From Bemisia tabaci (Eukaryota > Arthropoda > Insecta > Hemiptera > Aleyrodidae), in NCBI RefSeq assembly GCF_918797505.1, contig NC_092794.1:70841345-70905344 (forward strand): DNA of 64,000 nucleotides, read 5' to 3'. The position numbers and the translations under genes were made by a program. Numbering within the stretch: position 1 is the first letter of the stretch; every line of letters begins with the position of its first letter. A model generated the notes under the pieces. It did no database searches, was not told the origin of the DNA, and saw only the letters and a list, made by a program, of their open reading frames with translations. This document shows positions 972 to 63,221 of the stretch, in pieces.

Positions 972-1224
972 CTCCCGTCCTAAGGAAAAACGCCGCATGA
1001 GCCCTCAGACGTTGCCATATTTCCTTCAATAAAAACCTAATTAACCAGGAAAGTTGTGAATATATTCCTTCAGTCTTTTCAGAAAATTTTGTTCGCAGTT
1101 TTTTCGAAAACGTCTAAAAATGTCGAGGAAAAATAATAATAATTTTATACAAAACTACATGTTGTATCCGTGGAAATTTGGCAACTCTCGAATGTTCATA
1201 CGGCGTTCTTCCTCAGCACGGCAG
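972..1224 (+). mobile_element. Family C MITE, copy 1 (full length)
   Basis: A 253-bp element with long terminal inverted repeats, ending GCACGGCAG. It is flanked by an exact 4-bp duplication TATG (968-971 and 1225-1228). The left arm has the 'CAGACG/CAGGCG' variant and the right arm the 'CTCTCGAA' variant, which defines the plus orientation used here for this family. No coding capacity. Confidence 0.92.
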
Positions 1225-1324
1225 TATGGCACTCGCTCCAAGAGCTCCAGACCTCTTGCTCAGGCTCTGTCAGAAAGGAAATTACCCATGAGCCACGCGT
1301 TTATGAGACTCCACTCCGGCAACA

Positions 1325-1453
1325 AATTGGACGTATTGAAATGAAAAGGAACTATGTCCATGCTGACATGAGCCCTATCCAGCATGTATTCTTAGGGATC
1401 TCAGGGCTCACGTCAGAGTGGATATAGTTCCTTTTAATTGAAAGTGTCCAATT
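1325..1453. mobile_element. Family A palindromic MITE, diverged copy
   Basis: About 129 bp. Ends AATTGGACGT and GTCCAATT, with inner arms sharing GGAACTATG and CATGAGCCCT with the other A copies. It is the most diverged of the set. The following 1454-1846 shows nothing recognisable. Confidence 0.7.
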
Positions 1454-1846
1454 CACTATCAACAGTGCCTCCAAAAACAAAAAAGTGGTCAGTCGTTTCA
1501 GTATTGACTAAAATATGCGATTTTAGAGCAGAGCCATCGTAAAGTTTCGCGAGGGACCAATCGCTCACTTTTTGTTTAGTCTAAACTCGAGTCATACACA
1601 TAATGACGATGAAAGCAACAGCGGAGTCACATTTGCTCCACGTGGGGATGATGGGGGTAAATCTCAGCAACCATCATTCATTCCACATGAAAACTCTTCT
1701 TTGAGGAGCTGATTGCTTATTTCTCTTTACTCTCTACATTTTACCCTAAGGAATGAGACTGCTTGTACTAATGGATGCTGATTGGCTCAAATCTTAACAT
1801 ATACCAACCCCATCACTAACAACATCCCGCAAATTTTGTATGATGT

Positions 1847-2113
1847 CCAGCGGGCTGATTGTTGAAATTGATAGACAAAGCGATAGACATAGAAAACATA
1901 AGGAGTACTGAGCGATCCTACTGGTTGAAATGGGTGGTTCTTAAAGACTTAGGGATGGACTTAGTATCGGGTCTCTCGTGAGTTGCCGTTAGTTAGTCTA
2001 TTACATAGGTCCTTTGTCCATTGCAACCACCCGCTTCCGCCGATAGGAACCCTCCATATCCTCTTTGTCTATTGCACAGCTTTGTCTACCGATTTCAACA
2101 ATCAGCCCGCTGG
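1847..2113. mobile_element. Family D MITE, copy 1
   Basis: About 267 bp with terminal repeats CCAGCGGGCTGATT and AATCAGCCCGCTGG. The interior carries the family motifs TTGAAATTGATAGACAAAGC and CAACCACCCGCTTCC. Its right part is then repeated downstream as a tandem array. Confidence 0.8.
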
Positions 2114-2505
2114 AATTGTTAAAATTAGATAACGTCGGTGGCATTTAATAGACATGTTTGTTAGTCTATCGCCTACGTATTTTGTCCATTGCAACCACCC
2201 GCTTCCACCAATAGGAACCCTCCATATCCTCGTTGTCCTCTTTGTCTATTGCTTTGTCTACCGATTTTAACAATCAGCCCGCTGGAATTGTTAAAATTAG
2301 ATAACGGCGGTGGCATTTAATAGTCATGTTTGTTAGTCTATCGCCTACGTATTTTGTCCATTGCAACCACCCGCTTCAACCAATAGGAACCCTCCATATC
2401 CTCTTTGTCTCTCTTTGTCTATCGCTGTGTCCACCGATTTCAACAATCAGCCCGCTGGAATTATTGAAATTAACGAAATTAGATAACGGCGGTGGCATTT
2501 AATAG
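2103..2505. repeat. Tandem array of about 172-bp units from family D right end
   Basis: The segment starting CAGCCCGCTGGAATT followed by an ATTAGATAACG motif recurs at 2103, 2275 and 2448, giving periods of 172 and 173 bp. The third unit is incomplete. Each full unit includes the D right terminus, so the array grew by duplication of the end of copy D1 plus its flank. Confidence 0.85.
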
Positions 2506-2509
2506 TTTC

Positions 2510-2830
2510 ATGGTAGATAGCAGCACTGTTGCAGCGCAGCGCAGCTTGGAGGAGCCCCCGGGAGGGAGGGGGGAGGGGGGCTGAGGTGGTGCGGCGCGAA
2601 CCCGCAGAGACCACGGATTTGCTCAGCTGCTGTCCTCGTCCTAAAACTTCTCCACAAACTTTCACTGTTCTGTGGGCGTGCAGCGGCGTCGGGCGTCGCG
2701 GCGCCCGTGAGCTCCGGCGCGGACCGCGCGGGCGCCTCCCGCGGCTCACCAGCTCCGCGCGGGCGCCGCCGGCCCGGCCCGCTCAGCGCCGTCGACCGCC
2801 GAAAAGCGGTCAAGGAACACCGGAATAGAC
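2510..2830. other. GC- and CpG-rich island
   Basis: A sharp rise in GC and CpG content against an AT-rich background. Open frames run on both strands, as expected from GC-rich sequence, and no protein family is recognisable. It could be a promoter or 5' untranslated exon of an unseen gene. From 2831 to 4075 I see no gene or recognised repeat. Confidence 0.4.
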
Positions 2831-4075
2831 CGCTCGACTGCAGGAAATACTCAAGATATTGTTCGGCCGTTGGAAGTTGGATGTGGTTGCCGTCGTCGTT
2901 GCGTCATCCGTCCCAGCGTTGCCGCTTCCTCCTCCCCACTAGCCAAATTGTCCTCATAATCACCATTGTTTACATCCGAGTCTTGTGGGAATAATGCCGA
3001 TTTTGCAGCATATTCTGGCAACTATGCCCCCGACTCACGCATTTTGCCGTGTGACCGATGCCATGAGGGCAGTAACGCCCAATTTTCGGAACCTCCTAAA
3101 TTCGACTAGTTTTCAACTAGGGGTACGCCCCCTGACCGCTTCGCGATCCACCCCCCCCTCCCCCGAACGCTTCGCGACTTGGACGTTATGCGTTATTCGT
3201 ATTGTTTCGTATCATAGAGATATATTGACTGATTTGAATACAGAAAAATTCGTTTTATTTGTGAAAAAAATGAGAGTTACGAGAAAGCACTAACTGCTGG
3301 ACAAGACAGCTTGTAATGTAGAAAACGACAACCAAGAAAACACTCCCTGTACCTCGTATTATTCCTCTGAGGACATCAGTTCCAGAACAGTCTCCAAGAG
3401 TAATAAACAATTGCGTTCATGGCGAGATTCCCCGTGGAATTCCGCCCACTGCGCCGTCTGTGTCGAGACAAACCAAACAGCGAAATCAAACATATTTTGA
3501 CGATTAAATAAGGACAGAGGTTAAACTGGAATGATGTCCGAGGGCTCACTTTTTCGAGACTTTCTGTTGCATTTGCGTATTTTAGATGAATTTCGATTGT
3601 ATTTTGGGGGGAAATTCAGTCATGAAAAAAACGTATTGTGATGTTAATAATAAATGGATAATTAGAACAAAACATAAATAAAATCAGATTTTAAGCACAG
3701 GGAAACTTTTTTAACGTTGAATATGCATTCTCCACTCGCTTTCTTGTTATGAAAAGCTAAGATTGAGAGAATTACAGGCCGCTTTAATCCGAAACACTCC
3801 TATTCCTATGATCGTCCTATTCCTATTTCCTCAAAAATCGTCTTGGAAATTGTACCTAACTCCCCATGAGAAATGTTTGGGCACAGCCCTCCCCCCCCCT
3901 CACTTCCGTAGAAAATGAACAATTAACAGAACATAGAGCAATTTTTTTTTTAAAATTTTTTGTTCAACATGGTGGCGGCGCGTGCGCGGTGGCACACGAC
4001 ACGCGCAGCGCTCGGTATTTTCGTACTACCTCCATGTAATTATCCTCTGGCTGGTCAGCTCCGCCGCGGGCCGTC

Positions 4076-4309
4076 GCACGGTGGATCGAGTCAATAGGAG
4101 AGGTCGGACAAAAGTTGGAAACTTTAAACGCTTGTAACTCCGTTTATACGAAACTTTGAGGTTCTGAAAGTGGCTCCATTTGTTTCCTTGTGAAATTTTC
4201 TTCTACAGCCACCCTCCAACAGTTAAAACGCAAGAAAATAAACACCAAAATTTGCAGTTTTAGCACACGATTTCATGTCCGACCTCTCTAATTGGCTCGA
4301 TCCACTGTC
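4076..4309 (+). mobile_element. Family F MITE, copy 1
   Basis: About 234 bp. Ends match GTGGATCGAGTCAATAGGAG and its inverse near TTGGCTCGATCCACTGT. The interior has AAACTTTGAGGTT and CACCAAAATTTGCAGTTTT, shared with copies at 14523, 28123 and 40051. Confidence 0.85.
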
Positions 4310-9621: not shown

Positions 9622-9874
9622 CTGACGTGCTAAGGAAGAAAGCCGTATGGACCTTCAGGCGTTGCCAAATTTACTTTGATAAATCACGAATTCGCGAGAA
9701 AATTTGTCAATATTTTTCTTCCAACTTGTCATAAAATTGTGTTCGCAATTTCACCCTAAATTTCTGAAAATTTCACGGAAAAATATTCATAGCTTTCCGC
9801 AAAAATAAACATTTTATCGAAGGAAATTTGGCAACTCTCGAATGTTCATACGGCGTTTTTCCTTAGCACGGCAG
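9622..9874 (+). mobile_element. Family C MITE, copy 2
   Basis: 253 bp, with an exact TATG duplication at 9618-9621 and 9875-9878. The left end is slightly degenerate (CTGACGTGCTAAGG); the right end is canonical. Both arms keep the GCCAAATTT and AAATTTGGC cores. Confidence 0.93.
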
Positions 9875-10984: not shown

Positions 10985-11056
10985 TGACCCCGACGTGATT
11001 TGAACACGCAACCTTCTGATCTGGAGTCAGACGCGCTACCGTTGCGCCACGGAGTC
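10985..11056 (-). tRNA. tRNA-Trp (anticodon CCA)
   Basis: The minus strand reads as a complete 72-nt cloverleaf. The acceptor stem GACTCCG pairs with CGGGGTC (one T-G pair) and is followed by discriminator A. The A box is TGGCGCAACGG and the T-arm/B box is GTGTTCAAATC. The anticodon loop CTCCAGA contains CCA, giving tryptophan. There is no intron and no encoded CCA tail. Flanks are AT-rich with no linked tRNA. Transcription would be by RNA polymerase III from the internal boxes. It looks intact rather than a SINE remnant. Confidence 0.95.
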
Positions 11057-14240: not shown

Positions 14241-14371
14241 ATTGGACGTATTTCCGTCAGACGGAACTACGTGCATTATGACATGAGCCCTGTTATGTAT
14301 ATGTTCTTATGGGTCTCAGGGCTCATGTCTTAGTGCACATAGTTCCTTTTGGCAGAAATACGTCTCTCATT
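14241..14371. mobile_element. Family A palindromic MITE
   Basis: About 131 bp; ATTGGACGTATTTC at the left and GAAATACGTC at the right, with CATGAGCCCTG and its inverse inside. The right tip is degraded. Confidence 0.85.
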
Positions 14372-14522
14372 GTGCGACGTACGGCGGACGTCGCGTCGCG
14401 TCACGCGTGGCGCGTCCCGCAGCGGCAAGCAGTCGGGGGCCGGGGGGGGGGGAGGACCTCGGTACTCGTGACGTTTTCCTCAAACCTTGTGCGTGTCACT
14501 CACACCGGCATCGCATCGCGGC

Positions 14523-14756
14523 GCACAGTGGATCGAGACAATTGGAGAGGTCGGACATGAATTCGTTAACTAAAACCGCAATTTTTAAGTTCAATTCGTC
14601 GCATTTTTAATTTTGAGGGGTGCATCTGAAAGAAAATTCCACGAGAAAACCGATGGAACCACTTTTAAAACCTCAAAGTTTCGTATGGTCGTAGTTATGA
14701 GCGATTAAAGTTTCTTAATTCTGTCCGTCATCTCCTATTGACTAAAACCATTGTGC
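14523..14756 (-). mobile_element. Family F MITE, copy 2
   Basis: About 234 bp, inverted relative to the copies at 4076 and 28123. It starts GCACAGTGGATCGAG and contains AACCTCAAAGTTTCGTATGG. It sits inside a GC-rich stretch (14380-14520 and 14757-14960) that it appears to split. Confidence 0.85.
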
Positions 14757-15001
14757 GGCGGGCGGTGTTTCGACATAGCGGCCGCCGCAGAGAATGACCC
14801 GCCGCGCCGCGCCGTCACGCGCCACGTCACGCCCGCGTCTTCCGATGTACGCGGAAAAAAAGCTCCAGGATTTGACACCAACCGGGTTAAGGGCGACGCG
14901 CTGGGATTGAACTTGCCTGTCTGGACGCGCTATTATCGAATCCCTCGACCTGGGGACATTCAGAGTCCCTTCGTATCAAGAGTTACATGGAATCAATCTC
15001 T

Positions 15002-15131
15002 AATTTGACGTATTTCTATCAAACGGAACTATGTGCATTAAGACATGAGCCCTGAGACCCATAAGAATATGTGCATAACAGGGTTCACGTCATAATGCAC
15101 ATAGTTCCGTTTGATAGAATTACGTCCAATT
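15002..15131. mobile_element. Family A palindromic MITE
   Basis: 130 bp; AATTTGACGTATTTCTATC at the left, GATAGAATTACGTCCAATT at the right, and a central AGACCCATAAGAATATG segment. The arms are nearly perfect. Confidence 0.9.
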
Positions 15132-15300: not shown

Positions 15301-15551
15301 CTGCTGTGCTAAGGAAGAACACCGTTTGAGCTTTCAGACGTTGCCAAACTTCTTGTGACAAATCACGAATTTGCGGGAAAACTTGGAAATATTTTTCCTC
15401 CTTTTTCACAGAATTTAGTTTGTAATTTGAACTGAAATTACTGAAAATTTCAAGGAAAAATATTTTTTACTTTCTTCAAAAAGAAATATTTTCTAAGAGG
15501 AAATTTGGCAATATTCGAATGTTCATACAGCGTTTTTCCGTAGCACGGCAG
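15301..15551 (+). mobile_element. Family C MITE, copy 3
   Basis: 251 bp, left end CTGCTGTGCTAAGG, right end CCGTAGCACGGCAG. The flanking 4-mers (ATTT and AATC) do not match, so the duplication has decayed or the copy was rearranged. Confidence 0.9.
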
Positions 15552-15574
15552 AATCGGACTACATTTTCCGATAA

Positions 15575-16530
15575 GGAACTAATATTTTAGGCTCTCGTCG
15601 TATCCAAGTTGAGGAATAAGTGCTGTTCCAGTACTCCTCTCGATCAAAAAATGAATTAAAGTAACACAATTTTCTGTTTAAAATTCTTTCTGCCATTTTC
15701 CCTTCACCCCCTTTGGAATTAGAATCATCCGAGGATATCACGTAATCCCCTCTAGGCTCCTGACTGATCAGTGAACAAAAACCTACCAACAAAATAACGC
15801 GGTAAAACCAACCGAAGTGCCTCACCGAAAGATAAACTCTGCATTTGAACAATGCGCGGAGTGTAAAACAATGCAGGAATCTTCGAAGTTAGGTTCAAAC
15901 CCAACATGCAACTATTTTAACTCTGCGGTGGGCCAGGTTGCATACGCTCGTTTTAGCGGGCGAAATCTGTGATCTGCTCACGGCTTACTCGATTGGGTAC
16001 AGATGCAATTAGTGTTTTTCACTGTGACGTCTATTTCGTTTAACTATTTGAGCGCTCCTATCGCACAAATTACTAACGCGATTTTAACAAACTGAGATGC
16101 TTATCGAAAGACGAACTTGGCTTATGAATAATTCTCTGATTGTGAGCGAAGTGCAATGGAAAAATACATGAAGTTGTGGTTGGACAAAATATTTAGCTAT
16201 TTTAACTTCGCTGCGGGCCGAATTGCATACGTTCGAGGAAAACACTTATCGCACTTTTGAGTTGCACCTAATCGCGAGGGCCGTTCATCGCAAGCGTGAG
16301 CGGGTCGCGATCAGTTATCAAATCGCCCGCGAAACCGAGCGTATGCAATCCGGCCCACCGCGGAGTTCGAATAGTTGCATGTTGGGTCCGAACCCAACTT
16401 CGTACATTCTTCCATTGTCTTTTGCGTTGTTTTGAGTTGAAAGAAGTTCCGTTATCTAAGATGTTAAAATAAGGGCTCATTTTCAGATTTAATAGAAATG
16501 CTAACTGTAAACATTTGTAGTTCATTCGCC
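15575..16530 (+). mobile_element. Element E, copy 1 (long-inverted-repeat element)
   Basis: About 950 bp, similar throughout to 51985-53310. Internal inverted arms at about 15897-15990 and 16315-16402 carry CCCAACATGCAACTATT, CTCTGCGGTGGGCC and GCATACGCTCG. It lacks the two insertions present in the second copy and so provides empty sites for both. No transposase. DNA to 16960 has no further feature. Confidence 0.75.
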
Positions 16531-20546: not shown

Positions 20547-20801
20547 CAGTCATGCCAAGGAAAAACGCCTAATGAACATTCGAGATTTGTCAAATTTCCT
20601 TCGATAAAATGTTCATTTTTAAGGAATGCTATGCGCATATTTTACCTTGAAATTTTCAGAAACTTTAGGTGAAATTGCAAACAAAATTACATGGAACGTT
20701 TGAAGAAAAATATTTACATATTTTTCCGAGAATTCGTGATTCACCAAAGGAAATTTGGCAATGCCTAGGAGTTCATACGGCGTTCTTCCTTAGCACGGCA
20801 G
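20547..20801 (-). mobile_element. Family C MITE, copy 4
   Basis: 255 bp in the minus orientation (left arm ATTCGAGA type). The left tip is degenerate (CAGTCATGCCAAGG); the right tip is canonical. No matching flank. From 20802 to 21641 there is no recognisable feature. Confidence 0.85.
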
Positions 20802-21641: not shown

Positions 21642-21894
21642 CTGCCGTGCTAAGGAAGAACTCCTTATGAACATTCGAGAGTTGCCAAATTTCCTTCGAT
21701 AAAATGTTTATTTTTGAAGAAAATTATGTCTATTTTCCCTTAAAATTTTCAGACACTTCAGACCAAATTACGAACAAAATTATCTGAGAAATTGGCGTAA
21801 GAATATTCAAAAATTTTCCTGAAAATTAGTGGTTTGCCAGAGGAAATTTGGCAACGCCTGAGGGCGCATACGGCGTTCTTCCTTAGCACGGCAG
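21642..21894 (-). mobile_element. Family C MITE, copy 5
   Basis: 253 bp with intact ends CTGCCGTGCTAAGGAAGAAC and the inverse. Exact TACA duplication at 21638-21641 and 21895-21898. A reference-quality member of the family. From 21895 to 23322 I find no gene or repeat. Confidence 0.95.
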
Positions 21895-24738: not shown

Positions 24739-24988
24739 CTCTCGTGCTAAGAAAGAACGTCGTATAAGCCTTTAGACGTTGCCAAGTTCCCTCTGTTAAA
24801 ATACGAATTTTTACGGAAATCTGTGAATGTGTCTCCTTCAATTTTTCAGAGAATTTCAATTACAATCGGATCTAAATTATCTGAAAGTTGCGAGAGAAAA
24901 AACTCACAACTCTTTTTAAAAATGAGCGTTTTATTGAAGGAAATTTGGCAACTCTCGAATGTTCATATGGCGTTTTTACTGACGGCAG
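24739..24988 (+). mobile_element. Family C MITE, copy 6 (damaged right end)
   Basis: 250 bp. The left tip is mutated to CTCTCGTGCTAAGA. At the right tip the TTCCTTAGCACGGCAG consensus is reduced to TTTACTGACGGCAG, a small deletion in the terminal repeat that may have immobilised it. Confidence 0.85.
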
Positions 24989-25634: not shown

Positions 25635-25889
25635 CTGCCGTGCTACGATAAAACGCCGTAAGAACATTCGAGAGTTGCCAAATTTCTTAGCATTAACCGT
25701 GTATTTTTGAAGAAAATTATGCTTATTTTTCCTTGAAATTTTAAGGTTTTCCGGGAAAAAGTGTAAACAAAATTGTCTGAAAATAAATCGATGAAAAATA
25801 TTCACAATTTTCCAAGTAAATTCGTTTTATCTTGAAGGAAATGTGACAACGTCTGAAGGCTCTTACGGCGTTCTTCCTCAGCAGGGTAG
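25635..25889 (-). mobile_element. Family C MITE, copy 7
   Basis: 255 bp with exact TATT duplication at 25631-25634 and 25890-25893. Right tip GCAGGGTAG is slightly degenerate. Confidence 0.92.
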
Positions 25890-26265: not shown

Positions 26266-26518
26266 CTGCCGAGCTAAGGAAGAACGCCGTATGAACATTC
26301 GAGAGTTGCCAAATTTCCTTCAATAAAATGTTTATTTTTGCGGAAAGATGTGAATATTTTTTCCTGAAATTTTCAGGGACTTCAGGTGAAATCGCGAACA
26401 AAATTATCTGAAAAATTGGAAGGAAAATATTTATAAGTTTACCAGAAAATTCTTGTTTTATCATAAGATATTTGGCAACGCCTGATGGTTCATACGGCGT
26501 TCTTCCTTAGCACGGCAG
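26266..26518 (-). mobile_element. Family C MITE, copy 8 (tandem pair, first)
   Basis: 253 bp, left tip CTGCCGAGCTAAGG, preceded by TATG. Only six bases (TATATG) separate it from the next copy in the same orientation. Both share the rare GCCGAGC variant at the left tip. Confidence 0.93.
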
Positions 26519-26524
26519 TATATG

Positions 26525-26777
26525 CTGCCGAGCTAAGGAAGAACGCCGTATGAACTTTCAAGAGTTGCCACATTTCCTCGGATAAGACATGTATTTTTGA
26601 CGAAATTTACGAATGTTTTTCCTTACAATTTTCAGATATTTCAGATTAAATTGCGAACAAAATAGTCTGAAAAATTGGAGGATAATAATTTACAATTCCC
26701 CCAATAAATTCGTATTTTATCAGAGGAAATTTGGCAACGCCTGAAGGTTCATACGGCGTTTTCCCTTAGCACGGCAG
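26525..26777 (-). mobile_element. Family C MITE, copy 9 (tandem pair, second)
   Basis: 253 bp in the same orientation as copy 8, with the same GCCGAGC tip variant. Preceded by TATG, followed by TGTG. The internal sequences differ, so the pair is not a fresh duplication. From 26778 to 27531 nothing is recognised. Confidence 0.93.
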
Positions 26778-27531: not shown

Positions 27532-27786
27532 CTGCCGCGCTAAGGAGAAACGCCGTATGAGCATTCGAGAGTTGCTAAATTTCCTTCGATAAACTGTTTA
27601 TTTTTGAGGAAAGTCAGAAAGAAATTTTTCCGAGAAATTTTCAGATATTTTGGATTAAATTCCGAGCAAAAATATCTGAAGATTTCGAAGAAAAAAATTC
27701 AAAATTTTCCCGATTAATTCGGCTTTTGTCAAAGGAAATCTAGCAACGTCTAAAGGTCCATACGGCGTTTTTCCATTGCTCAGCAG
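27532..27786 (-). mobile_element. Family C MITE, copy 10
   Basis: 255 bp, left tip CTGCCGCGCTAAGG, right tip CATTGCTCAGCAG (diverged). No matching 4-bp flank. Confidence 0.88.
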
Positions 27787-28431: not shown

Positions 28432-28684
28432 CTGCCGTGCTAAGGAAGAACGCCGTAGGAACCTTCAAGCGTTGTCAAATTCCCTTCGATAAGAAACGAA
28501 TTTTCTGGTAAACTCATCAATATTTTTCTTCCAATTTTTCAGATAGTGTTGCTTACAATTCCGCCGAAAAGTCTTGACGATTGCGAGGGAAAATATTTAT
28601 GGATTTCCTCGAAAATGATCATTTTATCGAAGGGAACTTGACAACCCTCGAAAGTTCATACGGCGTTCTTCCTTAGCACGGTAG
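28432..28684 (+). mobile_element. Family C MITE, copy 11
   Basis: 253 bp with an exact CAAA duplication at 28428-28431 and 28685-28688. This is the only clear non-TA-starting duplication, showing that 4 bp rather than a TA dinucleotide is the duplicated unit. Confidence 0.95.
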
Positions 28685-38020: not shown

Positions 38021-38182
38021 AGTGGTGTGGCGTGCTTTGTAATGTATCGATTCATCGGCCATTTAAACATATGGAAAAAGATCGATAAATGGGGTGTTCG
38101 CAAGGAACACCGTAACAATCGATTCTTTACCACAGCTTCAAATGGAGAAATATCGATAATCGATCATTGGCACTTCGCCACT
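38021..38182. mobile_element. Family B fold-back MITE, copy 1 (intron 4)
   Basis: 162 bp, ends AGTGGTGTGGCGTGCTTTG and GCACTTCGCCACT. It is the most diverged copy. The flanks CTGTTTTTC and CTGTCTTTG are an imperfect 9-bp duplication. Confidence 0.75.
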
Positions 38183-39016
38183 GCTGTCTTTGATTTTGCA
38201 TTATCAATGTCCATTAGCACATTATGTCTAACGGTATTTAAAGGTATACCTACTGAGAAATTTCGTCTTGCAATCAGATAAACATATTTGTTTATAATAT
38301 TTCAAAAACTAATTATCCTACTGTATTTGAAACTTATACAGAGGAAAGAAGGATACCAGTTAATTATGAGACATTTGAGGAACCTAACTTACACAAGAGT
38401 TGGTATTTTAATGTACAAAGTCCACATCTGACATTGAATATTATTTGATTCACTTTAACCTGTGCCATTTCTGGGAATAATAAAAATGTATAATCTGTAG
38501 CAGTTAGCATTACGGTACATTCAATCTTCAGCACATAATGTAAATCAAGAATTGTTAAGACCAGTTTTTTGCATTGAAACTCATTCGATTTTGTTTAGGT
38601 CAGAGAGTTTAAATTTCCTTCAAGTGGCTTGATAGGCAACAATACATACGCGTGTGCGTTTCATCTACCTCTTGCGGCGGTCTCTGATGATCGCGAGCAA
38701 CTTTCATTGAGCATTCATTGGAGTTTTCAGTGGTCTTTCTTTGGCCTGACTGGTTGCACATGAGGAGAATAGAATATAGTATATTCTATAATCTACTCCT
38801 AGAGTATAGAAACAAAACTCCTCATAAGTTAATACTTTAGCCGAGCGCTTTGCAGTGCTTGACAAATTAATGAAATCTCATTTATATGTGATTTCCTCAA
38901 ATTTTCGCAAAATAGGAAAAGGAAAGAGATGAACTCCTTCAATTTTCTACTTCAGACTTTCCTAATATATATTCTGGTTTCCATGTTTCCTCCGGCTCAC
39001 GATTCGACATACGTAC

Positions 39017-39804: not shown

Positions 39805-40050
39805 GAAACTCCAAAACCACGTATCTTGATTTGCAACGTTGCAGACCTCTTGCCACACTCTATTATCGTAATGAAATATTACGCAACAATTGATTCTTTA
39901 AAACTTTCGTGACTTTCCTTCTGTATGCGAAGAAAATACTGCGAAAGCTTAATAGAATCATGTTGATTCACCTTCTATCAAAAACAATAAAGAGGCGCGG
40001 AGATTTTGAAACACCGCAAACAAGATACGTGGTTTGGGTGTTCCACCGCC
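39805..40050. mobile_element. Inverted-repeat element in E74A intron 3
   Basis: CCAAAACCACGTATCTTG near 39811 and CAAGATACGTGGTTTGGG near 40020 are inverse complements, with weaker matching further in. It directly abuts the family F element that starts at 40051. Confidence 0.7.
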
Positions 40051-40285
40051 GCACAGTGGATCGAGTAAATTAAAGCGATCGGACATATAATTTTTGACTA
40101 AAATTGCAAATTTTGATGTTTATTTCATCACTTTTTATATTTTCAGAGGTGCTTTTTTTAAGCAAATTTTACGAGGAAACGAATAAAACCCCTTTAAGAA
40201 CCTCAAAGTCTGTATGGACGGAGTTATGAGCGATTAAAATTTCCAAATTTTGTCTGACCTCTCCTATTGACTTGGTCCACTGTGC
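40051..40285 (-). mobile_element. Family F MITE, copy 4 (intron 3)
   Basis: 235 bp, ends GCACAGTGGATCGAG and GGTCCACTGTGC; the same orientation as the copy at 14523. Confidence 0.9.
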
Positions 40286-40329
40286 GTCAATATGGAGCTG
40301 AAATACCTCCCATAGTATTTAATTTACAA

Positions 40330-45612: not shown

Positions 45613-45772
45613 CTGAAAACAAACGGATATAAAATCGATGAGCTCATCGTTGGCAACGGACACGTGATTTTGCATAGTAAACAGTAGTCATTGGATTTCA
45701 ATTTTCGCAGACAGGTAATGTTCATCCTGCTGTTGTAGTCTACAGTGCCGCAGCGAGGGTGGTGGTGGGGTC

Positions 45773-45939
45773 AGTGGCGTGGCGTGCTTTATGCGATATA
45801 TCGATTGTTATGCCATTTAAACCTATGGTAAAGAATCGATTATTAAGGTGTTCGCTGCGGACACCCTGTTTATCGATCCTTCTCCATAGGTTTAAATGGC
45901 ATAACAATCGATATATCGCAGAAAGCACGCCACGCCACT
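45773..45939. mobile_element. Family B fold-back MITE, copy 2
   Basis: 167-bp near-perfect hairpin: AGTGGCGTGGCGTGCTTT and its inverse, with ATATATCGATTGTTATGCC and TAAACCTATGG in both arms. It is flanked by GGTGGTGGGGT on both sides (11 bp, in simple sequence). It lies about 160 bp upstream of the E74A start exon. Confidence 0.92.
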
Positions 45940-47284
45940 GGTGGTGGGGTGTCTAAGGGTCTAGACTCCGTGACTGGAAAATTTCCCCGCAGAATACGTC
46001 ATTCTTTCGTAATTTTTCCCCTTCGATCCTTCTTTCCCCGAAAAATCAGTAACCAATGAAACAGTAAGTAACATCTGTCTGGTGTATTATTATATAAGGG
46101 CAACACTACTCTATGTAGTTGTAGGGTAATAATAAATATCCTCACTTACTTGAAGAAAATTTCATTGAAGACAACCTCAATTAAAAAGTGGATCGCATCT
46201 GCAAAATGTTATACGTGTTGTTAATTGAGCCGTAATTATTATTTTTCTCGTTGTTCATACTGATCATGCCATGACTGCAGTTTCAGTCTCAAGGATTTTC
46301 CAGCTAGGAAGAAAATTCAAAACTGTTTACGCATAGCAGAAAGAAGGGGATTTTCGCCTACGAAAGCCAAATCATGGATATCGTCACATCAAAGCTCAAT
46401 AAAAATTGGAAACTGATTTTTTTTCTATGATTATCTTTTAATTCAGTCGAAAGCCTGACATTTTGTTTTTCTCTGAACACATCATAGGTAATTGCTAAAA
46501 ACTACGGTATATCGAAGATACTGAAGCTCTCAACTTTTATAACAATCAGCAAACATCTCAAACGATCGACAAAATCGAGTATGGCATCAATGCAAGCCAG
46601 GAATTAGGCTTTCTGCTTGAACTTGACCCATAAACATAAAACCGGCTGGGGAGGCAGATGGAGAGGGAGAGGGGGATAATTTGAATCACACCCGAATTGG
46701 AAAAGTGCAGCGTTAATTAACAATAATGTCCACTAACTGCAATTTTAACGCTCTGCTACGTAATCCGGAAAGCCAAGCGTGCTGACTGCATGCTTTCAAT
46801 GCACTCAAAATAGACGTTAAAACAAATAAAACGGTGCGAGATTGAAGCGCTGCTGCCAAAGCTCAAATAAAAATGTCGGTGTATTTTTTGTGCAGTTTTT
46901 CCGATCACAATTTCCTTGCGGAGGTGCAGGAAATTTGCTTACTTTGTTATTTTATTTGCTGGGATGAATTTGAATTGATACCAATGGATCATTTTCGATA
47001 GTAGTTCGATGTATCGTTTGGTTCAAAACAATAGTACGTACCATAAAACAAAAATTTTTGGATTTAAATTGGAAAAGCTGAAAATGAAAATATTCCGAAA
47101 AATTTCACTTTTGATTGATATTTGGTACTCGAAAGAACAAAAAATCAATTACCTAAGACACGTTCTCTCAGATTACTCAGTTGACTTTTGAGACCATGTT
47201 CACATGTTGAACCAATCTATATCGATACAATCTCACCTGTTTGATTTATTGAATACGATCTATAAAAAAGTATCAAGAATCATT
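45940..47284. other. Intergenic or upstream intron, nothing recognised
   Basis: AT-rich DNA between the E74A start exon and the K/A elements. It may hold the non-coding first exon and promoter of E74A, but no signal could be fixed. Confidence 0.4.
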
Positions 47285-47503: not shown

Positions 47504-47845
47504 TTACCCTGTCAAAAGGTATCACCCGCGGATGTTGGGAGTGCAACACAACTGGCAATAAATTATCATTTCTGATGACAGATTTTGCAGCAATGAGCTT
47601 TATTTTTGAGACCTTCTGCGCTTATCAACAAGTCCAAAATTACTCGACTTCGAGCACTCAAACATTTTTGCGAGGTGGCAATACTTCCATCATCCCCGGT
47701 TTTTTTCCATAGAAGTATGCAGAATATAGGGATTTGTCATGAAGATCTGACAACATGGACGCTCTGTTTGATTGAGTTGCTATGTTTGATCGGCAAAGCG
47801 GAGGGGGAGGAGATAGAGTGAAAAATCATGCATCTTGAGAGTATC

Positions 47846-47975
47846 AATCGGACGTATTTCTGTCAAACGGAACTATATGCATTAAGACATGAGCCCCAGG
47901 ACCCATAAAAATATATGCATAACAGGGCTCACGTAATGATGCACATAGTTCCGTTTGGCAGAAATGCGTCCAATT
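47846..47975. mobile_element. Family A palindromic MITE
   Basis: 130 bp; AATCGGACGTATTTCTGTC at the left and GCAGAAATGCGTCCAATT at the right; arms nearly identical to the copy at 37387. Confidence 0.9.
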
Positions 47976-48406
47976 TTCAATAAAAATAAACAATCTACGA
48001 GAGACGATATACCTCAGTTTTATCTCCGAGTGCCAATTACTATCAAGGATGCGACCTAGAAGAAATGACGAGCCCAGTTCTTTTCATTTTTTCAAAATCA
48101 AGTCGAAGACGATTACGTGTCGGGTTATTTGCGCGCTGTCGGAAGTAGGTAATACTTGGATGCGCAGTCGGATCTGAGTGTTTGCGGCACGAAAGGAATT
48201 TTTTTTGCAAGGTTGAAGATTGAAATGAAGCCGAGGAGGGGAGCTAATAAAGATAGAATGCTCAGAGAATAAACTATTATCTCCTCTCATTATCAACCAT
48301 TTCTTTTAAAGTTTCTAGTTTAACTCAACGTATACTTGAACTAAAATTAAGAAACAAGCACAAGTGGACGTGTTTCTACCAAACGGAACCGGCGGCAAGT
48401 GGGAAA

Positions 48407-51620: not shown

Positions 51621-52425
51621 TCGTACTTTTTCCGCATAAAAATCTGATAGAATTTAAGATTAATTCCCGTTTAGGTGCCCGTGCCGATTTTTTTGCGTCA
51701 TTAATTATTTTTTTCTTTTTTTTTCTTTGCTTGCGAATGATGGTGGTTTTCTACGACTGCCCTGTCTCTCTCTGTAAATGCGCCAGTAGATGAGTTGGGC
51801 CCTCCCTGCCTTCCCGCCCTTGCTCAGGAGGTAGTTTTTCTGTTTTCGGAGAAAGTGCAAATCATACAGAGCACGAATACAGGCAGATTTCGTCGTGTAT
51901 TTTTTGATGATATGATCTACCTAGTGGTAAGAAATTGTGTAAGCAAGTAAAGTTGGTCAAGTTTTTTCTCTCTTTACTTTTTTCCAGTGGGGAACCAATA
52001 TTTCAGGCCCTCTTATCCAAGTGAAGCGGGATAAATATTATTCTGCTCTTTTTCTCCATCAAAAAATTAATTGAAATAACACGATTTTCCGCTTCAAATT
52101 CATTTCGCCAGTTTCCATTACCTACCCCCGTTGGAAATGGAATCATCTGAAAATATCCTGTACTACTTCATCTAGGTACCTCAGTTAACCGAGAAAAAGC
52201 ATTGCAAACAAAATCACGCGATATAACCAATTGAGATGCCTTTTTGAAGTATGAACTGGGTATTTTAATAATGCGCGGAGCGTAAAACAATAGAAGGATA
52301 TACTAAGTTGGGTTTGAACCCAACATGCAACTATTTTAACTCTGCGGTGGGCCGGGTTGCATACCCTCGATTTAGCGGGCCAAATCTGAGATCCGCGCAC
52401 GGCTTTCACGATAAGGTGCGGATGC

Positions 52426-52570
52426 AATTGGACTGCATTTTGTAATTTGGACCTATAAATTCTGGCTCTTCCGGCAAAACACTTATGTGTATAGGGAAAC
52501 TAATGGTACATACGTTGTTTTTAAACCGGGCTAGAATTTATAGTTCCAAATTGCAAAATGTAGTCCAATT
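52426..52570 (+). mobile_element. Family Y MITE nested in element E
   Basis: Nearly perfect arms: GGACTGCATTTTGTAATTTG and AATTGCAAAATGTAGTCC. It is flanked by AATT on both sides; element E copy 1 has a single AATT at the same place (GATGCAATTAGTG), which proves a 4-bp duplication at this insertion. Confidence 0.88.
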
Positions 52571-52598
52571 AATGCTTCCCTCGAGCGTGACGTCTATT

Positions 52599-52851
52599 CT
52601 ACCGTGCTAAGGAAAAACGCCGTATGAACCTTCAGGCGTTGCCAAATTTCCAATTGTGAAACACGAATTTCCTGGTAAACTTATGAATCTATTTCTTGTA
52701 ATTTTTCAGATATTATCGTTTGCAAGTTCACCATAAGTTCCTGAAAATTTAAAGGAAAAATATTCTTAAATTTTCTCAAAAATACACATTATATTGAAGG
52801 AAATTTGGCAACTCTCGAATGTTCATACGTCGTTCTTCCTTAGCACGGCAG
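52599..52851 (+). mobile_element. Family C MITE, copy 12, nested in element E
   Basis: 253 bp with exact TATT duplication (52595-52598 and 52852-52855). Element E copy 1 has GACGTCTATTTCG here, an empty site with a single TATT. Confidence 0.93.
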
Positions 52852-54233
52852 TATTTTGGTGGACTATTTTTCGCTTCTGTCGCACAAATTAGTGACGTAA
52901 TACTAACAAACTGGGATACTTTCCGAGAGACGAACTCGGATTTTTTGAATAATGCACTGATAGTGAGCGCAGAACCGTGAAAGAATAAACGGAGTTTAGT
53001 TTGGACACGACGTGGAGTTATTTTGCTCAAGGAAAACACTGATCGCACCTCTACCCTATCGCGGAAGCCGTACATGGCAAGCCGCAAGCGCGCGCAGGCC
53101 GTGAGTATATCTCAAGTCGCCCGTAAAACCGAGCGTATGCAACCCGGCCCACCGCAGAGTTAATATAGTTGCATGTTGGGTTCGAACCCAACCTCGCATA
53201 TTCATCCATTGTTCTTCGCGTTGTTTTGAAGTTGGAAGAGCTTTCCGTCATCTATGAACTGAGAAAAGGCTTAGGTTTATCGAAATGCTAACGATAAACA
53301 TTTTTTCTACATTATCATTTATATCTACATAACTGATATTAACTAATAAAATGTGAATATCAGATTGCGACGTCGCAAATCTCCGCTCATGATGTACCTG
53401 TTCAAAAGAAATGTGACAGTCAGCTTATTTAAAGTTTTCAATGTATTCCTCTCTTATTTATAGCTATTGATCAAGTTCTTTCAATTCTCATCTTCGGTAG
53501 GTTTTTGATTCATTAATTTTTTTTTAAATATATCTATAAAAAATCCATCATCCGATGTTTTAAATGTTGCAATGAAGGGACAAATTTTTCGAATTTAGTT
53601 ATCGATGTATCTTTTTTCTATAAAAAGTCCCGGAAGTAAATTACTCCTCGTTATTCTCAATTCTCCTGTACCAGAGAGAGAGAGGGCAGTCTTGTCACAC
53701 GTTGGCCATCTCACCAGCAAACGACAGCAAAACCAATGAATTCGGAACGTTTAAGGCAACCTTGGCCTTCTGCCAAGTGGCGCACCGAACTGAACATCGC
53801 GGTAATGGTCGGTGCTTCCTTGTTTGACTAATCTACTGAATTTTAAGTTGGTTTTTTCTCGAGAATGCATCTGCAAATGTTACCTCGTAGCAACCTTGCC
53901 AATTTCGCGAATAGTTCTGAAAATTCAGCAGGAAAAACTGGCGCGGCAATTTAAAATAACTGAAGTTTTCTCACAAATATTAACGGAGCGCAGCATTTGC
54001 CCACGGGGTTTGGAAATGTTCTGAAAATGTTGGAATGTTTAGAAATGTTCTGAATTACGATTTTTCAACGGTGAAATTAACGTTTTACACCGTTGGCATG
54101 ACCTGCCTACATTTTTTTTGCAACTTCCAAGTAAAAAAAAAAGTTGCTGAAAGTTGACTGATTTCTTAAGTTTTATTAACGTTAAGCTTGCAGAGGTAGC
54201 TAAAAAGGGAAGAGAGGAAACTAGTTGTGTATA

Positions 54234-54486
54234 CTGCCGTACTAAGGAAGAACGCCGTATGAACTTTCAGGCATTGCCAAATTTCCTCTAGTAAAGCACT
54301 AATTTTCAGGTAAAGTTTTGAATATTTTTCTGGCAATTTCTTAGATAATTTTGTTTGTAATTTCGCCGAAAGTTCCTGACAATTTCAAGGAAAAATATTC
54401 ATAGCTTTCCCTAAAAGTAAACATTTTATCGAAGAAAATTTGGCAACTCTCGAATGTTCATACGGCGTTCTTCCTTAGCACGGCAG
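54234..54486 (+). mobile_element. Family C MITE, copy 13
   Basis: 253 bp with left tip CTGCCGTACTAAGGAAGAAC and a canonical right tip. Flanks TATA and TAGA do not match fully. Confidence 0.92.
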
Positions 54487-55822: not shown

Positions 55823-56075
55823 CTGCCGTGCTAAGGAAAAACGCCGTATGAACATTCGAGAGTTGCCAAATTTCCTTCGATAAAGTGTTCAATTTTGAGG
55901 AAAGTTATGAATATTTTTCCTTGAAATTTTCAGGAACTCTAGGTGAAATTGCGAGCAAACTTATCTGAAAAATTTAGAGACAAATATTCATAAGTTTACC
56001 AAGGGATTCTGGTTTTATCTAAGGAAATTTAGCAACGCTTGAAGATTCATACGGCGTTTTTCCTTGGCACGGCAG
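55823..56075 (-). mobile_element. Family C MITE, copy 14
   Basis: 253 bp with an intact left tip. Flanks TGCA and TACA differ by one base, consistent with a decayed duplication. Confidence 0.93.
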
Positions 56076-56873: not shown

Positions 56874-57040
56874 GCTGCCGTGTGCTCAGGGAAAACGCCG
56901 CATGAACATTCGAAAGTTGCCAAACTTCCTTCGATAAAATGTTCATTTTCGCGGAAAAGCATGAAAATTTTTCTGAGAAATTTCCAAAAAAATTAGGTAA
57001 AAGTGCGAACAAAATTACCCCAAAAATTGGGAGAACAGTA
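56874..57040 (-). mobile_element. Family C MITE, copy 15, truncated
   Basis: Left tip CTGCCGTGTGCTCAGG and the left arm are present, but the copy stops inside at about 57040, where an inverted fragment of element E begins. Confidence 0.82.
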
Positions 57041-57123
57041 TCCCACTCTCGAAAAGTATCCCAGGTTGTTAGTATTACGTTACTAATTTGTGCGACAGAA
57101 GCGACAAATAGTTGACCAAAATA
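57041..57123 (-). mobile_element. Fragment of element E (inverted)
   Basis: AAAGTATCCCAGGTTGTTAG and AATTTGTGCGACAGAAGCGA are the inverse of 52855-52935. It joins C copy 16 at exactly the junction seen at 52851/52852. Confidence 0.85.
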
Positions 57124-57377
57124 CTGCCGTGCTAAGGAAGAACGCTGTATGAACATTCGAGAGTTGCCAGATTCCCTTCAATGAAGTGTTCATTTTTGAG
57201 AAAATTTAAGAATATTTTTCCTTTGAAATTTTCAGGAACTTCATGTGAAATTGCAAACGATAATATCTGAAAAATTGGGAGAAAAACGTTTAAAAATTTC
57301 CCCGAAAATTTGTGTTTTACTAACGGAAATTTGGCAATGTCTGAAGGCACATACGGCGTTTTTCCTTAGGACGGCAG
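57124..57377 (-). mobile_element. Family C MITE, copy 16
   Basis: 254 bp with an intact left tip and right tip CTTAGGACGGCAG. Together with the adjacent E fragment it is an inverted copy of the C12/E composite. Confidence 0.92.
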
Positions 57378-57888: not shown

Positions 57889-58130
57889 CTGCCGTGCTGA
57901 GGAAAAACGCCGTATGAACCTCCAGGCGTTGCCAAATTTCCCTTGATAAAACACGAAACTTATGAATATTTTCTTTCCAATTTTTCAGATGATTTTGCTC
58001 GCAATTTCACCTAAAGATCCTGAAAATTTCAAGGAAAAATATTCATAACTTTCCTAAAAAATGAACATTTTATTGAGGGAAATTTGGCAAGTCTCGAATG
58101 TTCATACGGCGTTCTTCCTTAGCACGGCAG
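57889..58130 (+). mobile_element. Family C MITE, copy 17 (internal deletion)
   Basis: 242 bp, about 11 bp shorter than consensus because of a deletion after ACACGAAAC in the left half. Tips CTGCCGTGCTGAGG and GCACGGCAG. Confidence 0.92.
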
Positions 58131-59133: not shown

Positions 59134-59869
59134 CTCCCGGGCTGAGGAATAACGCCGTATGAGCCTTCAGGCGTTGCCAAATTCCCTTTGATGAAACGCG
59201 AATTTTCAGGGAAATTCTTGCATTTTCCCCCTAATTTTTTCCAGGGAATCTTATCCGCGATGGAGGTGTTGCATGTGTGAGGGATTTGCGACTTGACTAT
59301 TGATTCTCATGTAAAAGCTCGCGAGAAACACGATGGTGCCACTGGTTTTCTCTGAAATCAACTCCCAAGCTCAAAAAAAAAAACTCTCAAATGGAGGGGA
59401 TATCCCACGCTATCCTGAGAGTCCACCTCTACATCAAGACAAACTCTCCATGCAAAGATAGGGAGTAAATACATTGACAGGGTTGCCGTGATTTCAATCT
59501 TAGTGTCTCCAAATAAAGGGGCAGCCCTGTCAATGTATTTGCTCCCTATCTTTGCGTGGAGAGTTTATCTTGGTGTAGAGGTGGACTCTCAGGATAGCGT
59601 GAGATATCCCCTTCTTTTGGGCCTCAACTTGAGAGCTTTTTTTGAGCTTGGGAATTGATTTCAGAGAAAACCAGTGGCGCCATCGTGTTTCTCGCGAACT
59701 TTTACATGAGATTAAATCGTCAAATCGCAAATCCCTCACACATGCAACATCTCCATTTAGTCTGTGTCTCAAAATTTCAAAGGAAATTCATGAATTTTCT
59801 CAAAAATAGCACAGGGGGAAATTTGACAACATCCGTATGTTCATATCGCGTTTTTCCTTAGCGCGGCGG
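59134..59869 (+). mobile_element. Family C MITE, copy 18, split by a hairpin element
   Basis: Left arm from 59134 (CTCCCGGGCTGAGG, then CTTCAGGCGTTGCC) to about 59250. Right arm from about 59765 to 59869 (GGAAATTTGACAAC, then TTCCTTAGCGCGGCGG). The central 500 bp is a separate hairpin. Confidence 0.82.
59257..59763. mobile_element. About 505-bp near-perfect hairpin element
   Basis: Arms of about 240 bp (59257-59496 and 59524-59763) around a loop of under 35 bp. Matching landmarks include TGTTGCATGTGTGAGG, CGCGAGAAACACGATGG, CAGGATAGCGTG and CAATGTATTTGCTCCC with their inverses. It is inserted in C copy 18. A transcript would fold into long double-stranded RNA. Confidence 0.9.
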
Positions 59870-60006
59870 ACTAAGAAATCGGAGCTGCCCTGCCAAATTG
59901 GCAACGCTGCATTCCCGCGACTTACAAAGTTTACAAAACCACCAGCTCAAAACAAAACGTGCGCCCTCTCCAAGTGACTTCGGCCACTATAGGATGGACT
60001 ACTCGC

Positions 60007-60168
60007 AGTGGCGTGGCGTGCTTTGCGATATATCGCTGTTCTGCCATTTAAACCTATGGTAAAGAATCGATTACCAAGGTGTTCGCTGCGAACACCCTGA
60101 TTATCGATCCTTTTCCATAGGTTTAAATGACATAACAATCGATACAACGCAAAGCACGCCACGCCACT
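60007..60168. mobile_element. Family B fold-back MITE, copy 3
   Basis: 162 bp, AGTGGCGTGGCGTGCTTTG and inverse. Flanks GACTACTCG and GATTACTCG (8 of 9). From 60169 to 61059 no gene is recognised. Confidence 0.9.
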
Positions 60169-61059
60169 GATTACTCGACGCAGATTTCTTTTAAAGTCGA
60201 CGTTTATTGCGCTGTTGCGCGTGTGTTCTGAACCGTGCATCATACAGTGGTCCAAAGAACAAGGACAAATATATTTTAGAGAGGTTATATCTTAAGCACT
60301 CCAGTTTCTTGAAAAGGGGCTTTTCCAGTGTAACACCGTCATGAAACAAGTATTTTCCAAGCAGAAACTTTTACGAAACTTTGAAAATTTCATTTTTATC
60401 GACATAGCCAATAACCTTTTTCTTCATTATCATTTCCCTTTTGGGATGAGATGCACATCGCGTCACCCTCCGGCCAAAGTATCACAAGCGCCATTCGACG
60501 TTTAAAAATTTCCGCCGTCATTTTATTTCTTTACAAATAAATTGTTGGTTACATCTGTTTGAAAATTTCAGTGATTTTTTTTTTTCGTGCTGCCGAAAAA
60601 ATTCAGTGAAATTTTCTAACAGATTCAAACAACAATTTACTTGTATAGAAAATAAAATAGCGGCAGAAACTTTGAAACGTCGCATGGCGCATGCGATACT
60701 TTGCCCGGAGGGTGACGAGTAGTTGATTAAGTGATCAGAGTGTATAGTCTAATCGCAGTCAACAACTCTTCCACCGCATTTCCTTGATAATGGACGAATA
60801 CGGTGAAATATTCTACATCATAACGGTTTTACTCACATTTTTGTAAACGTAATTTTGCCATGAATAATTTTCTCCGGTTTAAAGCTAATGTTCAACCTGC
60901 TGTACCGATAGATATCTTCAGATCTTAAAAAATGTTCAAGAAAGGATAGGTGGGTCCTAACTATTTCGTATTTTTGAGAATGTTCCCTAATTTGTTCGGG
61001 GTTTTCCCCGACGTTTTATCTCCGGAGAGCAACTTTCAGTTTTTCGAAAAAAAAAATCT

Positions 61060-61255
61060 CAATGGGAGATCCTGCGCGGCCTGGCCAGGAAATGGCACAA
61101 TTTGTGTCGACTGTGCGTCACAAAAGCGCGTCATAATTCAGGCAACTAATGCCCGCTGTCTCCAGGCCGAAAACAATGTCTGGCCGGGGCTTGAACTCAG
61201 CACCCTGGCCGCTGCGTTCGTTGACCGGCTGTTTGGCAACCGTTCAAATCAAATT
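61060..61255 (-). repeat. tRNA-derived SINE-like sequence
   Basis: On the minus strand AGCCGGTCAACGAACGCAGC and GGGTGCTGAGTTCAAGCCCC look like the A-box/anticodon and B-box (GAGTTCAAGCC) parts of a tRNA, followed by an unrelated body ending near 61060. No clean cloverleaf can be folded by eye, so a SINE or tRNA pseudogene fits better than a functional tRNA. Confidence 0.4.
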
Positions 61256-61593
61256 TCATCCTGAGTCATTCGTGGTCCGGATTTTCAAAATTGAGCCCCG
61301 CAGACTTGTTGCCATTGTGAGTGGGCTGAATATTTTCCCGTCTCCTTTTCTCTGCAACTGCCTCTCCATTTTTCTAACGCCAAAGTATGCCCTCCTCGTA
61401 TCGCATTTAATGGAAAGTTGAAGCACTATTGTTTACTTATGCAGTAATGAGAGGGGGGGGGGGGTATGAGAATCGGTGAGAACATATTGCGGAAGGAAGA
61501 AGTCATGGTTCAGGGTAAAAATTAAAATTGAAGGGGGGGGGAGGGGAGAAAAACTGCAATCAAAAACTTTTCAAAATTGGCGGGCGGGAGAGA

Positions 61594-62212
61594 GGGTTCT
61601 TTTCAGCGCTAACAACACCACTAAATGCGCCTATCAAACTCCTTCAGTCGGGGTGTCTAGCGACCGGGGAAACCAGGAAAATGTCAAGGAAAGCAGGGAA
61701 AGCAGGGAAAACGTCAGAGAACCTGCCAAAATTCGACATGTCAGGGAATTTGATTTTGCAAGCGAATTTAGTGTCAGGGAAACGTCAGGGAAATCAAAAA
61801 ATACGGATTTTCCGGAAAATGTTTCGCGAATTTTATTCCTGCGGAAATTTCTACCAGAATTTCTGCTACTGTCTTTTACATTTTTAAAAAGGGGGCAAAA
61901 GTATCTCGCGCAAGTTTAGGCGTCACATGTTTTGCTCTATCTATTACATTACATCCCTAAAACATGAAAAAAGTTCTTTCCTACATCTAATCAGTTCAAC
62001 TGTGTTGAAAAATTAGGAAAATTTTCCCTTTTAATCAGGGAAATATTTTTTTCCGTCTGTCAGGGAATTTTAAATTTTTTCCCAGTTTTTTGCCGTTTTC
62101 GTTAGGGAAATCAGGGAAATGACAGGGCATTTTTTTTTGAAAATTGCTAGGCTCCCTGGGGGGTTCTTTTCAGCGCAAATGACACCACAAAATGCACCTA
62201 TCAAACTCCTTC
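61594..62212 (+). repeat. Direct repeat (about 51 bp) around family P copy 2
   Basis: GGGTTCTTTTCAGCGC then ATCAAACTCCTTC occurs at 61594-61644 and at 62161-62212, 567 bp apart. The intervening 61650-62155 is the GGGAA-rich P repeat (TCAGGGAAATC and GTCAGGGAATTT). Copies differ at several positions. Confidence 0.75.
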
Positions 62213-62357
62213 GGGGATATTTTCATGGATGTGAATTTTTCAACCTTTCCATACTGCACCTATGCGAGGCTGTCAGCAAGTAAGCACTGTATACGCTAAT
62301 TTTTATCTTCTAACGAGTTGGCCACTGATGGAGGAAAAATACCGCTGGAAAAATACC

Positions 62358-62518
62358 AGTGGCGAGGCGTGAATGATCGATTATCGATATATCTCCATTT
62401 GAAGCTATGCTGAAGAATCGATTATTAAGGTGTTTGTTGCGAACGCCCTGTCATCGATACTTTTCCATAGGTTTAAATGGCAGATCAATCGATATATCGT
62501 AAAGCACGTCACGCTACT
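62358..62518. mobile_element. Family B fold-back MITE, copy 4
   Basis: 161 bp with ends AGTGGCGAGGCGTG and CACGTCACGCTACT. It is flanked by an exact 10-bp duplication GAAAAATACC, the best evidence for the target duplication of this family. Confidence 0.92.
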
Positions 62519-62968
62519 GAAAAATACCCAGTCTTGAATAAATAGGACATCGCTTCGGGGGGATTATTTCCTGCCTTTCAATTTTCTACTGACTCATTCC
62601 GCGATGCCAAAGAAGAGCCGGCATTGTTTATGAAAGAGCAAGTTATATTTTCACGAAAACGTAACGCTATACGTCGCTGAGTTCATGGATTAGACCGGCG
62701 GGGTCAACCGCGCGGTCAACGACTCACGGAAAAAATGGGTCAGATCATGCCTGACCTTAGAAAAACTACCTGATTTATTTTTGCTTGATAATGTAGGTTA
62801 TCAGCCTCTCGACCGTTATGATACCAGGTAGAATGCCTCGAGCCTTTTCTCTTTTTTTCACGCAACGTTTCCCATACCTATTCTGTTCCCTGTACTGCCT
62901 TCTTGGAATTGAAAAAACTTTCTGCAGTAGAAAATAATCTATCTCTAGAAAAACTTATGCGTAGAGTA

Positions 62969-63221
62969 CTGCCCTGCCAAGGGAAAACACCGTATGAACC
63001 TTCAGGTTTTGCCAAATTTCCTTAGATAAAACACGAATTTCCTGGTAAACTTGTGAAAATTTTCCCTCCAATTTTTCAGATAATTTTGTGCGCGATTTCA
63101 CCTGAAATTCCTGAAAATTTCAAGGGAATATGTTTATAACGTTCCGCAAAAATGAACATTTTATCGAAGGAAATTTGGCAACTCTCAAATGTTTATACGG
63201 CGCTCTTCTTTAGCACGGCAG
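62969..63221 (+). mobile_element. Family C MITE, copy 19
   Basis: 253 bp with left tip CTGCCCTGCCAAGG and right tip TTTAGCACGGCAG. Flanks AGTA and AGAA do not match. From 63222 to 63590 nothing is recognised. Confidence 0.9.

Follow-up and report, generated by a model that had tools for sequence, protein, structure and literature searches.

The stretch analysed here, a 64,000-nucleotide window on contig NC_092794.1 of the whitefly Bemisia tabaci, is populated by a 253-base-pair (bp) miniature inverted-repeat transposable element (MITE) with 4-bp target-site duplications, which was very probably moved by a predicted DDD-type transposase, DUF7869, encoded in longer elements whose ends are the same or related. 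The duplication is 4 bp, the target is C-HATD-G, MITE and long elements have a 31-bp end in common, and a DUF7869 gene lies within elements that are themselves bounded by ends of this kind and by 4-bp duplications. Because the MITE shares both its end and its 4-bp duplication with a longer DUF7869-bearing element, we infer that the DUF7869 protein was what mobilised it. In the proposed mechanism, this protein would bind the terminal CTGCCGT....AARAACGCCGTA of the MITE and the long elements, pair the two ends and excise the element; strand transfer would take place at nicks staggered by 4 bp, and repair of the gaps would yield the 4-bp duplication. The MITE would supply ends only, the enzyme acting in trans.

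Within the window, the terminal 14-mer of the MITE, CTGCCGTGCTAAGG, has 33 matches at up to three mismatches, against a mean of 2.13 and a largest value of 6 in 100 shuffles. A BLAST search with a consensus built from 14 window copies located 19 insertions of this one family. An earlier note on this DNA had reported 17 complete and two damaged copies; its total and its 17-to-2 division stand, except that the 17 comprise 15 complete and two nearly complete copies. The six exact duplications that it named (at 972, 9622, 21642, 25635, 28432 and 52599) are all exact, and belong to six of the 15 complete copies. The 19 insertions are:

972..1224, plus strand, MITE copy of 253 bp, duplication TATG/TATG
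9622..9874, plus strand, MITE copy of 253 bp, duplication TATG/TATG
15301..15551, plus strand, MITE copy of 251 bp, flanks ATTT/AATC, no exact duplication
20553..20801, minus strand, nearly complete MITE copy, one end without its outermost bases
21642..21894, minus strand, MITE copy of 253 bp, duplication TACA/TACA
24743..24980, plus strand, nearly complete MITE copy, ends decayed
25635..25889, minus strand, MITE copy of 255 bp, duplication TATT/TATT
26266..26518, minus strand, MITE copy of 253 bp, first of a head-to-tail pair
26525..26777, minus strand, MITE copy of 253 bp, second of the head-to-tail pair
27532..27786, minus strand, MITE copy of 255 bp, no exact duplication
28432..28684, plus strand, MITE copy of 253 bp, duplication CAAA/CAAA
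52599..52851, plus strand, MITE copy of 253 bp, duplication TATT/TATT
54234..54486, plus strand, MITE copy of 253 bp, flanks TATA/TAGA
55823..56075, minus strand, MITE copy of 253 bp, flanks TGCA/TACA
56875..57041, minus strand, damaged MITE copy, MITE positions 89-253
57124..57377, minus strand, MITE copy of 254 bp, no exact duplication
57889..58130, plus strand, MITE copy of 242 bp, no exact duplication
59134..59869, plus strand, damaged or interrupted MITE copy, left part 59134-59261, right part 59817-59867
62969..63221, plus strand, MITE copy of 253 bp, flanks AGTA/AGAA

The window is locally rich in the element: its 64 kilobases (kb) hold 15 complete copies, the 200 kb that follow hold 11. 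The head-to-tail pair at 26266-26777 is separated by the spacer TATATG, as if one copy had entered or adjoined the target duplication of the other.

The length of the duplication was determined on 48 complete copies with their flanks, 26 of them from the window together with the following 200 kb and 22 from contig C1; the latter places were chosen through an exact 14-mer, which biases them toward well-preserved ends, and 20 partial matches were left out. Exact flank matches occur at 2 bp in eight copies, at 3 bp in two, at 4 bp in 26 and at 5 bp or more in none. When the right flanks were shuffled (20,000 shuffles), exact 4-mers numbered 2.87 on average and 11 at most, far from the 26 observed. 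Thirteen of the remaining copies match at three of the four positions, and nine at two or fewer. The 26 exact duplications have A as their second base in 24 cases and T as their third in 21; the base before is C in 17, the base after is G in 14, and both hold in eight, so that the target reads as the near-palindrome C-HATD-G. A duplication of TA alone had seemed possible for window copies such as those at 54234 and 57889, and was set aside when the larger set gave 4 bp. The earlier note's proposal of one MITE family with 4-bp duplications is thereby upheld, the flanks of these 48 copies having revealed no other prevailing length.

Unoccupied paralogous sites were found for five of the 48 copies by querying the fetched DNA with joined flanks, two of them clean, and these empty sites hold the 4-mer once. 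The site of copy L033 has a single TATG at 89% identity. The copy at joined coordinate 162425 matches empty sites at 17 places, of which the window holds four (for example 4071-4192), and the 4-mer itself differs among the 17. L035 and L036 each have a single such place, with identity as low as 72-73%, and L005 has one in which the junction contains an 11-base gap. The queries from L031, 26266 and 26525 matched only themselves or an adjoining MITE, and the remaining 40 of the 48 gave no junction-spanning match in the fetched DNA. A dispersed repeat of about 240 bp lies at 4072-4308, 14519-14761, 28119-28362 and 40045-40288, and its relatives are the empty sites of one MITE insertion.

The element itself has the features of a MITE: it is short, present in high copy number, bounded by inverted repeats and a target duplication, and has a longer coding relative with the same ends. 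Its length, described previously as mostly 253 bp, is exactly that in 26 of the 48 complete copies, within a range of 232-263. The arms of about 70 bp proposed at the same time are better described otherwise: perfect complementarity covers the first 29 bp of the ends, and the element is imperfectly palindromic over all its 253 bp, the consensus being 78% identical to its own reverse complement. Across the 610-megabase B. tabaci assembly, the MITE-end 14-mer with at most one mismatch occurs 24,062 + 23,925 = 47,987 times, compared with 53 + 56 = 109 times for the reversed pattern used as a control. Since 38 of the 52 ends of complete copies in the contiguous 264 kb pass this limit, the 47,987 ends extrapolate to an estimated 33,000 copies, roughly, in the genome. 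Divergence of the 48 copies from the consensus, by the Kimura two-parameter measure, is 0.11-0.28 with a median of 0.16, a figure overstated by the use of a single consensus across possible subfamilies; given this divergence, most of the 48 copies are old.

MITEs are reported to make up 28% of the B. tabaci MEAM1 genome (PMC5157087), and 84,436 copies in 564 lineages have been catalogued for the species (PMC9143410). The 253-bp family is very likely among these, and the accessible portions of both publications yielded neither a partner nor a duplication length for it (PMC5157087, PMC9143410); the main text of iMITEdb does not mention Bemisia. The MITE end, found for instance at window positions 9861-9874, is part of the published forward primer (CTTCCTTAGCACGGCAGAAT) for the B. 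tabaci microsatellite P62 (PMC6794263).

The earlier note had seen no autonomous partner in the window, correctly, and had suggested a genome search for a longer element with the same termini and a transposase frame. Such an element exists elsewhere in the genome, with a broken gene. Of the initial eight places (L001-L008), L002 and L003 follow the MITE just for its first 32-37 bp and then continue into other DNA. Extension of L003, as L050, delimits an element of 1,721 bp (51-1771) with 33-bp inverted ends and the duplication AGTG/AGTG, containing no frame longer than 101 amino acids (aa). Genome searches with the right-end type of L049 and the left end of L050 gave at least 30 and at least 33 matches, which, when paired by eye, make up six elements near 1.7 kb in length, single ones near 0.84 and 2.2 kb, and four above 3 kb. 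Three of these four were fetched, L051, L052 and L053. L052, on contig C1, is a 5,669-bp element flanked by TACA/TACA, one end of which agrees with the 31-bp MITE end at 31 of 31 positions and the other at 28-29. On its minus strand lie three frames (583, 230 and 90 aa) of one protein, split by a frame change and a stop. The 230-aa piece matches the Pfam family PF25273, DUF7869 (E 1.6e-7; 31.6 bits, cut-off 26); the 583- and 90-aa pieces have no Pfam match at E ≤ 1. The first codons of this gene sit inside the end region common to L052 and the noncoding 1,721-bp element, and the latter therefore fits an origin by internal deletion of an L052-type element. L051 (TGTA/TGTA) and L053 (AATT/GATA, not a duplication) contain other inserted DNA and do not appear among the matches listed by either DUF7869 search.

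Exact 4-bp duplications flank seven of the nine long elements with both ends read, a count that includes neither L008 nor L049, in which 9.4 kb of sequence revealed no second end. L008 holds, at 182-1514, an element of 1,333 bp whose two ends are MITE arms; its middle is different, with apparent tandem repeats (judged by eye), and its flanks ACTG/AATG form no exact duplication. Another probable element, at 10929103-10930801 of contig C4 (genome G000), has two left ends in inverted orientation in place of a left and a right one. What the MITE and the long elements have in common is the terminal 31-37 bp, and for that reason the MITE is not a simple internal deletion of the long elements found; it likely arose from another member or through end capture.

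DUF7869 itself has at least 22 matches in the B. tabaci genome and none in 14 control genomes. They include a young family, in which loci L054+L056 and L055+L057 are 99.2% identical over 5,961 columns. The two loci remain alike from CTGCCGTCCAACGTAAAAACGCC to GGCGTTCTTGCGTTGCACGGCAG and diverge at most 2 bp away from these termini, which delimits elements of 5,950 and 5,944 bp whose ends agree with the MITE end at 21-24 of 31 positions. Four of five copies have exact duplications (AATA, AGCA, TATG and AGTG); the C6 copy (CAAC/AACG) does not. By protein search, the whole 849-aa frame is open in two copies, C6 and C8, and is interrupted, split or partly deleted in the other three. Compared with the 849-aa protein, the first L052 piece shows 41% identity across 378 aa and the second 65% across 229 aa. 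The predicted protein of a related element has a 100% identical counterpart from Bemisia tabaci at NCBI. A distant DUF7869 protein, at L058:2444-4342, has a full frame of 633 aa, with NNC in place of the DNC motif and KGHTQMECD as the last motif. One search returned 540 relatives of DUF7869, and such proteins occur in beetles, planthoppers, leafhoppers, whitefly, moths and Hydra. In IMG/VR, where near-host records may be missing, the end pattern retrieved no contig, and the three matches to the protein pattern are not relatives. The part of the literature searched neither mentions DUF7869 nor prints six of its motif words.

The predicted fold of the DUF7869 protein is that of DDE transposases and integrases: an RNase H-like DDE/D core, in which three acidic residues occupy the strands and helix where such a core would have them. 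D421, D500 and D544 (P0008 numbering) are predicted to hold metals in this core. D544 is invariant in 49 of 49 sequences, and E551, seven residues further, is present in 46; either of the two may be the catalytic one. DUF7869 is the only Pfam family matched by the scanned proteins at E ≤ 1. A profile search of the PDB gave only an insignificant match, and no viral structure matched below E 0.001.

Several observations weigh against DUF7869 as the enzyme that moved the MITE. On the structural side, Foldseek alone found no PDB match at E ≤ 0.001, its top match being an unrelated carboxylase, and several VIA-align rows, that for Mos1 included, have a root-mean-square deviation above 9. The 849-aa protein scores 24.8 bits, under the DUF7869 cut-off of 26. 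As for the ends, those of the intact family match the MITE only to the extent given above, nothing detectable is common to MITE and long elements inside the terminal 37 bp, the DUF7869 gene of L058 is without CTGCC-type ends within the 6.5 kb read, and two of the nine long elements (L053 and the C6 copy) have no clean 4-bp duplication. The sole DUF7869 gene found with MITE-type ends, that of L052, is broken, and mobilisation of the MITE by an L052-type enzyme may for this reason be over by now. Finally, the proposed mechanism is drawn from sequence and predicted structure.

Known superfamilies may offer a name for this enzyme. Sola, Ginger, CMC or an unnamed group had been put forward on the strength of the 4-bp duplication; Sola or an unnamed group remains, CMC may still apply, and Ginger is disfavoured. 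That the DUF7869 elements belong to the already described Sola superfamily, an enzyme class known under another name of which only the Pfam entry is unaware, is on balance probable. The accessible descriptions of Sola report a DDD transposase, 4-bp duplications and very variable ends (PMC10741241, PMC3627910), the 4-bp duplication being shown here by 26 of 48 MITEs and seven of nine long elements; the predicted DDD core would fit as well, if D544 and not E551 is catalytic. A published screen, in the part consulted, lists 93 Sola copies in B. tabaci (PMC9143410). The Sola2 elements of dictyostelids, according to the portion of that report available, have ends of 12-21 bp and AT-rich duplications, AWWT in one species, whereas the ends here are about 31 bp and the duplication is HATD inside C..G (PMC3627910). 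The Sola assignment is compatible with mobilisation by DUF7869, as it names the same enzyme, and the DDE/D partner of the MITE is most likely Sola-like. We consider more tentatively that DUF7869 proteins are the transposases of a widespread animal superfamily never named before, of DDD type, with whitefly ends CTGCCGT..AARAACGCCGTA and 4-bp duplications at C-HATD-G, which built a high-copy whitefly repeat and of which copies with open frames remain.

CMC/Chapaev elements have CAC-type termini, and the ends here are CTGCCGT; an assignment to that group may still hold. Other assignments fare worse. A TA duplication of the Tc1/mariner type is contradicted by eight matches at 2 bp against 26 at 4 bp. 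Ginger1 and Ginger2 are described, in the excerpts available, as duplicating 4 bp or 4-5 bp, likewise 4 bp here (PMC10045372), but Ginger termini are given as TG..CA in the accessible text (PMC10741241), and those of the MITE and the six long elements compared are CT..AG. Kolobok and piggyBac also duplicate 4 bp, in their case TTAA, as the consulted section states (PMC9587614), which is found in none of the 26 exact duplications. For Academ the available passage gives a 3-bp duplication (PMC5199201), a length at which two of the 48 copies match.

Some DNA transposons carry passenger genes, and an unrelated transposase with chance-similar ends might have mobilised the MITE, with DUF7869 picked up as cargo by the long elements. 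A DUF7869 gene was found in just one element with MITE-type ends, as this scenario would allow, yet the scenario appears improbable, since the same gene occupies the same kind of element in two families with different ends, their proteins 41-65% identical, and has the predicted fold of a DDE transposase or integrase. Nor do the elements offer a rival gene of comparable size: the DUF7869 frame is the longest by far; in L052 the next outside the gene has 105 aa (frames of at least 70 aa scanned), and in L055 the next frame, of 249 aa, is antisense to the gene (frames of at least 150 aa, in a scan without the last 1.2 kb of the element). Spread of the copies through segmental or tandem duplication instead of transposition, suggested by the mere 6 bp within the head-to-tail pair, hardly merits consideration and is already refuted for most copies, because the flanks of the 48 complete copies differ, and 26 have their own exact duplication and five an empty paralogous site.

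The window holds further features. A tRNA-Trp gene lies at 10985-11056 on the minus strand. A repeat family of about 130 bp, whose copies share 82-92% identity, occurs at 14241-14364, 15002-15131, 31225-31359, 37385-37517 and 47844-47978, and another of about 170 bp, one pair of which matches in inverted orientation too, at 38015-38191, 45771-45940, 60006-60170 and 62349-62524. A longer repeat has two diverged copies (69-75% identical) at 15564-16516 and 51980-53303, and the MITE at 52599-52851 sits between two matching parts of the latter.

For whitefly workers, a caution follows regarding the P62 primer, which carries sequence with tens of thousands of genomic copies. More generally, DUF7869, a Pfam domain so far without an assigned function and with the 540 relatives of one search, acquires a likely role. 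Linking the domain to a target, a terminal sequence and a given length of duplication makes it possible to assign orphan MITEs that duplicate 4 bp. The young whitefly family, with its two full frames, its nearly identical pair and four of its five copies exactly duplicated at their flanks, lends itself to a transposition assay.

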